Notes under the pieces: generated by a model
The model's input: the letters and a program-made list of their open reading frames with translations, nothing else
Told to the model about the DNA's origin: nothing
The model's database searches: none
Assembly: GCA_023475225.1 (NCBI GenBank)
Contig: JAMCVK010000034.1
Location: 1-64,000 of the forward strand
Direction of reading: 5' to 3'
Length of the DNA: 64,000 bases
Origin: Chloroflexota bacterium
GTDB lineage: Bacteria; Chloroflexota; UBA6077; FW602-bin22; JAMCVK01
Shown: positions 44,568 to 57,021 of the stretch, one piece after another
How positions within the stretch are numbered: the stretch's first letter is position 1
Layout of the letters: each line of letters opens with the position of its first letter
Position numbers and translations under genes: made by a program

Positions 44568-44600
44568 TAATAAACCTCTGCGCTGGGCAGAGGTTTATTA
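44568..44600. terminator. Perfect 14-bp hairpin after recJ
   Basis: TAATAAACCTCTGC (44568-44581) is exactly complementary to 44587-44600 with a 5-base loop. T- and A-rich ends make it a bidirectional intrinsic terminator serving recJ and, from the other side, the minus-strand genes of the following block. The putative attachment repeat begins two bases further on. Confidence 0.8.
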
Positions 44601-44601
44601 T

Positions 44602-44612
44602 TGGTGGAGATG
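44602..44612 (+). repeat. Putative distal attachment-site repeat
   Basis: Eleven bases identical to the 3' end of the tmRNA gene (46996-47006), in the same orientation, placed just after the recJ terminator. An exact 11-mer match at this spot is unlikely by chance within a few kilobases. Confidence 0.45.
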
Positions 44613-44658
44613 CGTGGACGATATTAAGAACTTTCTGCCTATCGTTTAGCCTCGCCAA

Positions 44659-45492
44659 CTAGTCTAGGAACGAGCACAGCAAATTTCGCTGAAGATACAC
44701 ATGCTTGCAACTCCCGTTGTCCAACCAGTAAATCTCATGGCCTTCGCCTGCTAAGCCTCGACAGCGGACACACAGAGGAGACAGCCTATTGGACCCTGGC
44801 CGAACCCAGAGCGCGACACCCAGGACATTGGAGCGGCTTGCCATATCCTGGGCAAAGAATTTGATCCAAGACTGTAGCAAAGGAACGTGATAGACATGAG
44901 CTACCCAAATGCCTGTGACCTCGGGAGGTAACTGGCTATTACCCTTGCCCCTAAGCGCACGGAGGCGTTTGGGTTCCTCTCTCCTCTGATCCGCGAGTGC
45001 TATGCTCACGTCTGGGCTCTTCACCAACCATTCATTAGGCAGCACCCGAGGCAGCCACACCTCGCCATAGATTTCTTGGCCTTCCAAGTCTATGCTGAAA
45101 TCCGACTCTTCTGTGCCAACTGGTAATTGAGGTCGGATCTCTTTTAGCAATTCTAACCCCGCGATCCAGGCAAGGGTCTTGATCTCAACCACCGTGCTGT
45201 AGAACTGCTCCAAATTCTTGGAACGAACGCCGGGGCCCAGCTTGCTAAACCCAGGCAGGAGGGATATAGTGTCTAAGTACCTGTCGAGTTTCCCCAGTTT
45301 CGCTTTGGTATCCTCTTCAGAGTCTGCTCTCGTTAAGTTGTTGAGTCAGGGCTGCTGGAAGCCCCGTTTCGCATCTTTGGCAATATAGCTAGCTGTCCAA
45401 AACCGAGACAGAGACGGTAGGCTCGCTATGAATGTCGCGATCTCCTTAGGAGTCATTGCACGGTGCTCGTATGGTTTCACAAATGCTTGCAA
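44659..45492 (-). pseudogene. Unrecognised gene interrupted by an in-frame TGA
   Basis: A single reading frame runs from TTG 45492 (GGAA upstream; GTG 45480 and ATG 45456 are alternatives) to 44659, broken only by TGA at 45346-45348. Both sides look protein-like: ...KEIATFIASLPSLSRFW before, DRYLDTISLLPGFSKLG and VVEIKTLAWIAGLELLKEI after. A shorter TTG-started product from 45213 (184 residues) is possible. The C-terminal part has cysteines in LCVRCRGLAG and NGSCKHVYL. I recognise no family. A CGA-to-TGA change would explain the stop; a sequencing error is equally possible. It lies inside the putative island. Confidence 0.6.
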
Positions 45493-45731
45493 GCTGGTGG
45501 GGTTTCCTGGACACTACTCGAACCTTCTGCGGCCTGACCTGGTGCCTAAGCTACAGCAACTCCTAGCCTCTCTTCCCACCAGGAGTCCCTAAAGTGCTTG
45601 GTAAATCAACCAGAACCTAGCCGTTCTATGAAGCCGCCATGGGGTTGCTTGTGCGGCTGTACTGACCACCATCCAGAATGCGATTGAAATAGCTGTCATG
45701 GCGCTGACAGCTCTCGCTATTGGTACCCGCT
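45493..45731. other. 239 bases without a recognisable gene
   Basis: Stops occur in every frame at short intervals and no ribosome site, promoter or strong hairpin stands out. It separates the interrupted gene from the 167-residue gene and may be eroded coding sequence of the putative island. Confidence 0.5.
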
Positions 45732-46235
45732 CTACTTTTGGAGTTCAGCCTGGTACTCCTGAGCAGAGATTCGGTAGTGCCTAACCAGTCTCCAGCCAAT
45801 GGCTCCCATATCGTCTAGCACACGGGCAAATGCCTTACTGGATGACATCATTTCATCAGCGGAGGGCGCTTCGCGATCTCTTCTACTTCGGAATGCTTGT
45901 GCCGCTGCACCCAGAAGACGCAATTGATTAAGTTGATGTCGAAGAGCTTCCTCTAGTTTCTTTTGGAATTCCAGCATAACCATGGCCCCGTGGTTGTCCC
46001 TTAGGATAGGCCAGAATCGAGAGTCACTAGTCTCGCGCTGCACCTCGTCGAACACTGCTAGAGCTGCCAATCGGGCCTTTTCAAATTCCTCCGATTGCAT
46101 ACCCAAGGGTTGTACAGCTATGGTGAGCCTCATTGCATCCGTCACTTTGTCAATCCTTGCTATGGCGCGATACCAACGATTCAGCAACGCAAGGACCTTC
46201 TCTCGTTCATCAGGGTCTACTGTTCGTCGGAACAT
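45732..46235 (-). CDS. Hypothetical helical protein
   Basis: Not recognised. A 167-residue soluble protein, predicted mostly helical and rich in charged residues, Ala and Leu, without signal peptide, membrane span or cysteine motif. It starts at ATG 46235 with GGAGG five bases upstream, a good translation signal. Blocks such as EREKVLALLNRWYRAIARID and LRHQLNQLRLLGAAAQAF suggest coiled or bundled helices. It lies between two other unknown genes in the putative ssrA-linked island, probably in one operon with them. Confidence 0.65.
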   Translation of the reverse strand: MFRRTVDPDEREKVLALLNRWYRAIARIDKVTDAMRLTIAVQPLGMQSEEFEKARLAALAVFDEVQRETSDSRFWPILRDNHGAMVMLEFQKKLEEALRHQLNQLRLLGAAAQAFRSRRDREAPSADEMMSSSKAFARVLDDMGAIGWRLVRHYRISAQEYQAELQK

Positions 46236-46361
46236 GGCAGCCTCCTAAGCTGAGATGCATGTAGGCTAGCAATCGGAAAAGAAGGCCCCCGATGATCTGA
46301 CAATTCCACGAAGAAGCACGAGATCTGTGCTTTGACGATACGCCTTCTGTCAAGGATCGCT

Positions 46362-46958
46362 CTATCGTGCGTTGCGCCAAACGTCTTCAATGTCAGGGCG
46401 AATCCAGGACCTGTCTAGCACGAATCGTGTGATCATCAACGCCACGGTTAGCCTCCTGACCAGATCGTCATCGTCGCCAGATAGTCGGGTGATGTTTCCT
46501 ACAAATCTCCCAATGGCGTTGTCATCTCTATACGGCCAAGATTGTCCTTTCGAGCCTATAAGCTGCTTGCACTCTGCGTACTCCAACTCCGCCGCATTAA
46601 GATTGTGCAGCAGTTCTTCCTTCATCCGTTGTTTCCATCCTTCAACGTCGAACTGTTGGTCAGCCTGGGACGCATCCCATAACGCGTCCACTGTGGTATC
46701 TATTGTATAGAGAGTGACACGATCCTGCAGCTGAGCCCTGAAACCTGGTCCGCCTATCTCAAATGCCCAACGGCTGACGAGGTGGCATAGCAAACCCAAC
46801 ACCTCAGTGTGGACTTTCCACTTTGTCCTGGAGTCACTGATACCAAGACTTTCTGATAAAAGATTGACTAAAACCACCGCCGATGCTGGGACCTTGATCA
46901 ACAGCGCTGATCCTGCCTCCGCTGCTTTCTGTTCTTTTGATTTCCCAAACAAGGGCAT
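46362..46958 (-). CDS. Hypothetical protein
   Basis: Not recognised. 198 residues, soluble, largely helical. The N-terminus MPLFGKSKEQKAAEAG is basic and short; later parts include WKVHTEVLGLLCHLVSRWAF and an acidic GDDDDLVRRLTVALMITRF. No catalytic motif is evident. ATG 46958 is preceded by GGGAG. It begins only 37 bases from the 3' end of the tmRNA gene on the same strand and is the first gene of the putative island. Read-through from ssrA could transcribe it, since no terminator is visible between them. Confidence 0.65.
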   Translation of the reverse strand: MPLFGKSKEQKAAEAGSALLIKVPASAVVLVNLLSESLGISDSRTKWKVHTEVLGLLCHLVSRWAFEIGGPGFRAQLQDRVTLYTIDTTVDALWDASQADQQFDVEGWKQRMKEELLHNLNAAELEYAECKQLIGSKGQSWPYRDDNAIGRFVGNITRLSGDDDDLVRRLTVALMITRFVLDRSWIRPDIEDVWRNAR

Positions 46959-46995
46959 GTTTGCGACTCCCTGTCCACCTTTTATCTTATCTTGA

Positions 46996-47006
46996 TGGTG
47001 GAGATG
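46996..47006 (+). repeat. Attachment-site repeat at the ssrA 3' end
   Basis: TGGTGGAGATG, the acceptor-stem and CCA end of the tmRNA gene, duplicated at 44602-44612. tmRNA 3' ends are frequent integrase targets. Confidence 0.45.
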
Positions 47007-47348
47007 GGGGGAATCGAACCCCCGTCCAGAGAATTCAACTAGGAATCTACTACAAGCTTATTCGGCGTTTTGATTCTCATGTGCACCAGCACTGCCGACC
47101 GAGCTGATGCCCACCAGTCGATAATTCTTAAGTGACCCCTATCGACGTCCGGATCGCTGCACTCTGACATTACGGCGTCCAATCCCGCCCATCAGAGCGA
47201 GGCTAGATTGGACGTAGCTGCTTACTTAAGCGGCTAGAGCGTAAGAAATGTTGCCAGTTACTGGCTTGCCACTTGTTTAACGAGAGAGCTAGTGGCACCT
47301 CGGCTTGCAACTCCTAGCCTTCCTTCCCTGTCGAAGCCTGGCATCCCC
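46996..47348 (-). ncRNA. ssrA: Transfer-messenger RNA (tmRNA)
   Basis: Rescues stalled ribosomes with SmpB. The 5' end reads GGGGATGCCAGGCTTCGAC, typical of tmRNA, and GGGGAT pairs with ATCTCC just before the genomically encoded 3' ACCA. The T-arm (GGGGGTTCGATTCCCCC) is intact. The mRNA-like part ends in a frame coding ...NISYALAA followed by TAA; the full open stretch from a GGC resume codon would be GKPVTGNISYALAA. The tag start is inferred. The gene begins 5 bases after the smpB stop codon. Confidence 0.95.
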
Positions 47349-49651: not shown

Positions 49652-50662
49652 ATGACTACCGAGTCCCCAGCCTACCCCACTATCACCGAGGCTATCCAGT
49701 TATTCAGGCAATCCATCGCTGGCAAATCTCAGAAGACCATCCAAACCTATACCACCGCCCTCAACCGCCTTCAGGAGTATTTGAATCAGCAAACACCCGA
49801 TAATTTGCACACCGCCGAACTGCCAGCTGATCTCCTCGAAGATTTCTACCTCTGGTTAATAAAAACTTATGGCCGAGATCAACGTTTCACTGTGGCCACC
49901 TATGTGGCCGGTGTGCGGGCCTTCGTTCGCTTCCTGTCTCGTCGCAACCTCTTGCCCGCTGGACTCTCCTTTGAACAGATGAGAGATAACCTACGAGAAG
50001 TAATGGGTAAATCTGGTTATAAGACCCCTCGGGTGGACAAGGGGCTTCCACTTCTCGTAGTTTATGTCAACAATTTGCCCGTTCCCGGCAAGCCGCCCAA
50101 GCGCCTCGAAATTTTGCGTGACAAGGCCATCGTTAATACCCTCTATTCTACGGGGATGCGCCGTGGTGAAGTCTCTTCGCTAAATCGTGAAGACTTAGAT
50201 GATGGACGGTCAACGCAGGCCATAATTACAGGTAAGGGACACAAGGAACGTGTCGTCTTCTTCGATAACCCAACCCTAGAAGTTATACGGACCTATCTCG
50301 CCGCTCGTAATGACCGTTACTCTCCTCTTTTCATTCGCCACGATAAGGGCCGTGGGAAACCGAAGAAGAATGGCACCAACTTTCGACTCTCGCCTCAATC
50401 TATCTGGCAGACAGTCAAACGCTACGCCCATCTTGCAGGCGTTAATGTCAGCACCCACGATTTTCGCCATACTAAGGCTAGTGTTATGTTAAACAAGGGA
50501 GCCAAACTCTCCGAGGTTCAAGATATCCTTGGCCACGCCTCACCAGAGACCACCAAGAAGATCTACGCTCACTACGAGATATCCCATCTCAGACAAGCCT
50601 TCGACCGTTATAGTATCTCAGCAACCGAACTGGCTGCCGAGATCGAAAAGGGGAGGGGCTAA
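49652..50662 (+). CDS. Tyrosine recombinase / site-specific integrase
   Basis: A 336-residue recombinase with an N-terminal SAM-like core-binding domain (about 8-110) and a C-terminal catalytic domain. The catalytic set is visible: Arg in STGMRRGEVSSL, Lys in GKGHKERVVFF, His and Arg in THDFRHTKAS, His in LGHASPETT and the nucleophile Tyr in KKIYAHYE. Length and layout resemble XerC/XerD-like and phage integrases. It is a single plus-strand gene between minus-strand operons, with its own promoter. Whether it moves the ssrA-linked block at 44.6-47 kb is unknown. Confidence 0.9.
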   Translation: MTTESPAYPTITEAIQLFRQSIAGKSQKTIQTYTTALNRLQEYLNQQTPDNLHTAELPADLLEDFYLWLIKTYGRDQRFTVATYVAGVRAFVRFLSRRNLLPAGLSFEQMRDNLREVMGKSGYKTPRVDKGLPLLVVYVNNLPVPGKPPKRLEILRDKAIVNTLYSTGMRRGEVSSLNREDLDDGRSTQAIITGKGHKERVVFFDNPTLEVIRTYLAARNDRYSPLFIRHDKGRGKPKKNGTNFRLSPQSIWQTVKRYAHLAGVNVSTHDFRHTKASVMLNKGAKLSEVQDILGHASPETTKKIYAHYEISHLRQAFDRYSISATELAAEIEKGRG

Positions 50663-56892: not shown

Positions 56893-56916
56893 AATCAGGA
56901 ACTGTAATCCTTAATT

Positions 56917-57001
56917 CCGCTTCCCTACGCTGGCATTACCCAGATCAGGTTCTAAGGGTCGGTGGACAGTGCACGCTCTCAGCCGTCAAGCTCCCCTAGC
57001 G
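56917..57001 (-). promoter_or_regulatory. TPP riboswitch (THI element)
   Basis: The minus strand carries the conserved thi-box parts in order: CTAGGGGAGC, GGCTGAGAG, ACCCTTAGAACCTGATCTGGGTAATGCCAGCG (in pieces ACCTGATC and GGTAATGCCAGCG), and AGGGAAGC. It precedes thiC and controls the thi operon in response to thiamine diphosphate, most likely by the terminator just downstream. Confidence 0.95.
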
Positions 57002-57021
57002 GTCTCTTCACTTTGTACATA

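Follow-up and report, generated by a model that had tools for sequence, protein, structure and literature searches.

A probable integrase-less remnant of an integrated element at the tmRNA gene of a Chloroflexota bacterium

A 2.4-kb segment lying directly downstream of ssrA, the tmRNA gene, in the genome of a Chloroflexota bacterium is very probably what remains of an element that entered by site-specific integration at the acceptor-stem (3') end of that gene and has since lost its integrase. The segment lies in a window of 64,000 nucleotides, which is the whole stretch of DNA analysed here, and its features are collected in Table 1. Judged by its anatomy, it is best read as an integrase-less remnant of the cis-mobilizable-element type. 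The insertion would have followed the common route that targets tRNA and tmRNA genes, and the event itself is ordinary and of a known kind; only the cargo is unfamiliar. The first-pass annotation of this DNA had proposed an undescribed mini-island inserted at the tmRNA gene by an integrative element. A displaced repeat, a displaced terminator, comparison with relatives and atypical codon use now back the proposed site-specific insertion into the ssrA 3' end. An active integrative element is not supported, as the insert contains no integrase, and 'undescribed' does not hold for the kind, since ssrA islands lacking integration modules have already been reported (PMC3146451) and tmRNA is the tDNA target most enriched in Islander (PMC4383910).

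Table 1. Features of the insert and its flanks (window coordinates)
Feature	Coordinates	Strand	Evidence or remark
Symmetrical terminator, 14-bp perfect hairpin; serves recJ and, before insertion, probably ssrA	44568..44600		Inverted repeat; 1 nt after distal repeat
Displaced repeat copy, far end of insert	44602..44612	-	Likely remnant of original ssrA end
Inserted segment between repeat copies, 2,383 bp	44613..46995		Flanking exact repeats, displaced terminator, atypical codon use
P3, cargo ORF 3, 265 codons	44659..45456	-	Coding score 0.51, borderline; one in-frame TGA at 45346-45348
P167, cargo ORF 2, 167 aa, intact, no family	45732..46235	-	Coding score 0.91
P198, cargo ORF 1, 198 aa, intact, no family	46362..46958	-	Coding score 0.85; start 38 nt past tmRNA
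Repeat copy in ssrA 3' end	46996..47006	-	Acceptor-stem 3' strand + ACCA
ssrA (tmRNA), integration target, regenerated	46996..47348	-	ARAGORN; Rfam RF00023, 176.6 bits

The segment is bounded by an 11-bp exact direct repeat, TGGTGGAGATG, placed by the first-pass annotation at the 3' end of ssrA and at a distal point. It is confirmed to occur in exactly two copies in the 64-kb window, against 0.04 matches expected by chance, and none of the shuffled sequences contained two. Read on the minus strand as CATCTCCACCA, it corresponds to the end of the tmRNA itself. Similarity between the two copies reaches 15 of 17 nt, the exact part being 11 nt, and an extended motif, TCCNCNCATCTCCACCA, matches at these two places only, with 0 matches expected. 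When 11-mers were drawn from the window at random, 31 of 20,000 had a second copy in the next 2.5 kb downstream. The window has a complete tmRNA gene followed downstream by a displaced 3' fragment in the same orientation, as a tDNA (here ssrA) island should, and the fragment fits the T/acceptor-stem junction subsite of the Islander scheme. Misassembly at the repeat is unlikely because 11 bp is shorter than the k-mers usual in assemblers. Two further resemblances to tmRNA were put down to chance: a scrap at 45556-45577 (20 of 22 nt), which has no RNA family match, and, at another ssrA locus (L061), a second occurrence of the tmRNA end, 596 nt past the gene and beyond a proper terminator. Elsewhere in the window, a TPP riboswitch was recognized on the minus strand (56905-57007, 74.5 bits).

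The main new evidence for insertion is the displaced terminator. Relatives from the same class were gathered via their tmRNA genes, giving 20 usable tmRNA ends. For a perfect hairpin of 7 bp or more whose start is no further than 12 nt from the tmRNA end, the count is 13 of 20 (1.9% of random positions); for hairpins of 9 bp or more it is 12 (0.16% of random positions). The window's own ssrA has no perfect hairpin of at least 7 bp within 12 nt of its end, whilst a perfect hairpin of 14 bp begins 1 nt past the distal repeat. The missing hairpin alone is not diagnostic, because seven of the 20 ends from the class likewise have no nearby hairpin under these criteria. When the insert is removed in silico, the resulting junction, CCCATCTCCACCA^ATAATAAACCTCTGCCCAGCGCAGAGGTTTATTA, is that of an ordinary ssrA and its terminator, the latter common to the convergent recJ gene; the predicted empty site would have ssrA followed directly by AATAATAAACCTCTGC and recJ. 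The distal copy had been described as lying just past the recJ terminator, a position that stands; to this can be added that only 1 nt separates it from a symmetrical terminator fit for both recJ and the ancestral ssrA. Within the comparison set, the source genome is the sole member of its genus and family. The recJ loci of the order carry no tmRNA in their flanks of ~1.5 kb, and the stretches taken around ssrA gave no recJ match. One bin among the genomes compared (G006) holds two different full-length tmRNA genes (L060, L071), possibly through contamination.

The insert holds three frames, all on the strand of ssrA. A classifier based on codon position, with a cross-validated sensitivity of 0.94 and specificity of 0.93, scores P198 and P167 as coding and leaves P3 borderline, and P167 is preceded by AGGAGG five bases upstream of its ATG. 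Frame length alone is weak evidence of coding, because the longest open frame in the insert, at 228 codons, lies only at the 99th percentile of Markov-simulated sequence. In synonymous codon use, P198 and P167 score under all 45 host genes of the window and P3 under all but one of them, whilst the GC content of the insert is host-like, a combination consistent with foreign DNA that either arrived long ago or derives from a host whose GC content was similar. That the three genes, two intact and the third with a TGA, belong to no assignable family was borne out by searches of Pfam, NCBIfam, PHROGs and PADLOC, none of which gave a significant match; no PADLOC defence model was matched, P3 being represented there by its 184-aa C-terminal part. 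The two alignment-free structural models of cargo proteins, with mean pLDDT values of 48 and 35, were too poor for a fold search, the first being a single-sequence model of P198 that is all-helical and unreliable.

Relatives of the cargo were equally elusive. The other 12 genomes of the order lack P198, and no convincing relative of P198, P167 or P3 was found in 400 genomes of the phylum, in viral contigs, or in phages and plasmids; P198 and P3 had none in the genome collection either, in a scan sensitive to close relatives only. Weak matches to P198 and P3 within the phylum were attributed to chance, as the loci concerned (L076 and L079, L077 being left aside) carry other genes, by eye glyoxalase-like and dehydrogenase-like, and the weak matches to P167 (E ~0.005 per genome) are at chance level over 400 phylum genomes. 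The defence or regulatory role suggested for the cargo draws no support from family matches or relatives, and such a function is neither supported nor excluded; most likely, these are dispensable accessory genes.

Domain and repeat searches of the insert revealed no integrase, no transposase and no inverted repeats. The one tyrosine recombinase of the window (49652-50662), Xer-like and under the NCBIfam cut-offs, was considered as the element's own integrase and rejected, as its orthologs adjoin ctpA-smpB-ssrA in several families of the class, among them genomes with a normal ssrA terminator. The hflX-recombinase-ctpA-smpB-ssrA neighbourhood recurs, in part or whole, across several families, and the gene is therefore a conserved chromosomal one. 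Other Pfam tyrosine recombinases of the genome lie on other contigs, and among the matches listed for the class genomes no integrase lies directly behind ssrA. Two side observations concern the recombinases of this genome. At L085:8278-10998 (G000:C15), two tyrosine-recombinase genes are adjacent on the same strand, with a neighbour that by eye has a DnaA-like C-terminal stretch. At L086:3428-10795 (G000:C25), an element of ~7.2 kb, carrying a tyrosine integrase and a D5-type primase-helicase, lies between two copies of tRNA-Arg(TCG), of which the integrase-side copy has altered T and acceptor arms and the far copy is intact, an arrangement that resembles the rarer 5'-fragment type of tDNA island.

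Several described systems provide parallels. Dehalococcoides islands lie between ssrA and a 20-bp repeat, occur in tandem arrays and are integrated by the serine recombinase DsiB, the crossover being placed by inference in the T-loop. An integration module is missing from 15 of these islands, which were proposed to be cis-mobilizable elements (PMC3146451). The present insert resembles these in its boundaries, with ssrA at one end and a displaced direct repeat of the ssrA 3' end at the other, in having no integrase and in carrying accessory cargo. It differs in being single, in its 11-nt exact acceptor-stem repeat and in cargo without a recognized family, and no DsiB-like serine recombinase domain, the module found adjacent to attL in the Dehalococcoides type, is present within it. 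CIMEs, which derive from ICEs and IMEs, keep att-like ends but have no genes for integration or transfer (PMC5704250). The insert has this same anatomy, with two att-like ends and no such genes between them, and on these grounds it may descend from an ICE or IME; no relative of the cargo and no helper element was found in the collections searched. As in the islands catalogued by Islander, where tmRNA is the most enriched tDNA target (PMC4383910), a regenerated tmRNA gene and a displaced 3' fragment stand in the expected order and orientation. However, Islander accepts an island only if it contains an integrase gene (PMC4383910), and the present insert, which holds none, would be filtered out.

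Other explanations of the segment have to be weighed against this reading. The case against insertion is that the repeat is short (11 nt exact, 15/17 overall) and the GC content host-like. On that view the three genes would be native neighbours and the repeat a coincidence, which is also in keeping with the comparison having offered no empty-site genome, the genome standing alone in its genus and family, and with a recJ-ssrA adjacency that is not conserved in the order, leaving the ancestral layout uncertain. Such a coincidence is nevertheless very unlikely: recurrence of an 11-mer within 2.5 kb is rare, this repeat lies precisely at the end of the tmRNA, and the hairpin terminator that ought to follow ssrA is instead found 1 nt beyond the distal copy. 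Direct repeats of ~11 bp also flank some transposons, and the repeat could in principle be a target duplication of 11 bp. However, the segment has neither the terminal inverted repeats nor the transposase domain of a transposon or insertion sequence, is present as a single genomic copy, and has a repeat that coincides with the end of the tmRNA; a transposon origin is exceedingly improbable.

A different possibility is that the unit never possessed an integrase and is a natural minimal cargo cassette, inserted in trans by the ssrA-specific recombinase of another element. The insert is small, gene-dense and free of any integrase trace, and a second integrase-less insert is known from the class. 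In a genome of another family (G026:C5; L066/L088), ssrA (396877-397231) is followed by an insert of 584 bp that closes with an exact 20-nt copy of the tmRNA end and contains an 85-aa reverse frame with no Pfam match. This insert is separate from and independent of the one in the window and, as one case, suggests that integration at ssrA has taken place on more than one occasion in the class. Against insertion in trans, no helper with a matching end was found, the stretches examined around the genome's other tyrosine recombinases containing no exact copy of CATCTCCACCA, and deletion of an integrase is the commoner route (PMC5704250). We regard a cassette of this kind as unlikely. A broader proposal, that a family of tiny cargo-only cassettes within this class docks at ssrA as a common site, has no promoters of its own, is transcribed from smpB-ssrA and borrows a recombinase from elsewhere, possibly the Xer-like gene syntenic with ctpA-smpB-ssrA, is very improbable.

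Under the preferred reading, that of an integrated element that lost its integrase, the element would have entered ssrA at its acceptor end by site-specific recombination, presumably recombinase-mediated. The element's attP would have held the last nucleotides of the tmRNA, restoring ssrA, and the original 3' fragment, still joined to the original terminator, would have moved 2.4 kb downstream. Later loss of the integrase would have left the segment immobile or at best cis-mobilizable, and P3, with its one nonsense codon, appears to be decaying. The smpB-ssrA transcript would extend at its 3' end into the cargo, running through P198, P167 and P3 to the old terminator. This is the simplest arrangement because the cargo lies on the ssrA strand, begins just past the tmRNA and ends at the old terminator; in addition, smpB ends 5 nt upstream of ssrA and no minus-strand terminator was found within the insert. 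A promoter scan of the region, which also missed the ssrA promoter, cannot support read-through, and it is from the gene arrangement that the cargo is probably read through from smpB-ssrA.

The two intact cargo proteins would be of importance only if some function could be assigned to them. The insert itself adds another bacterial group to those with integrase-less ssrA inserts and illustrates what island finders that require an integrase will miss. It also offers a clean case in which an insertion is legible from what it displaced, the target's own terminator, even without an empty-site genome.
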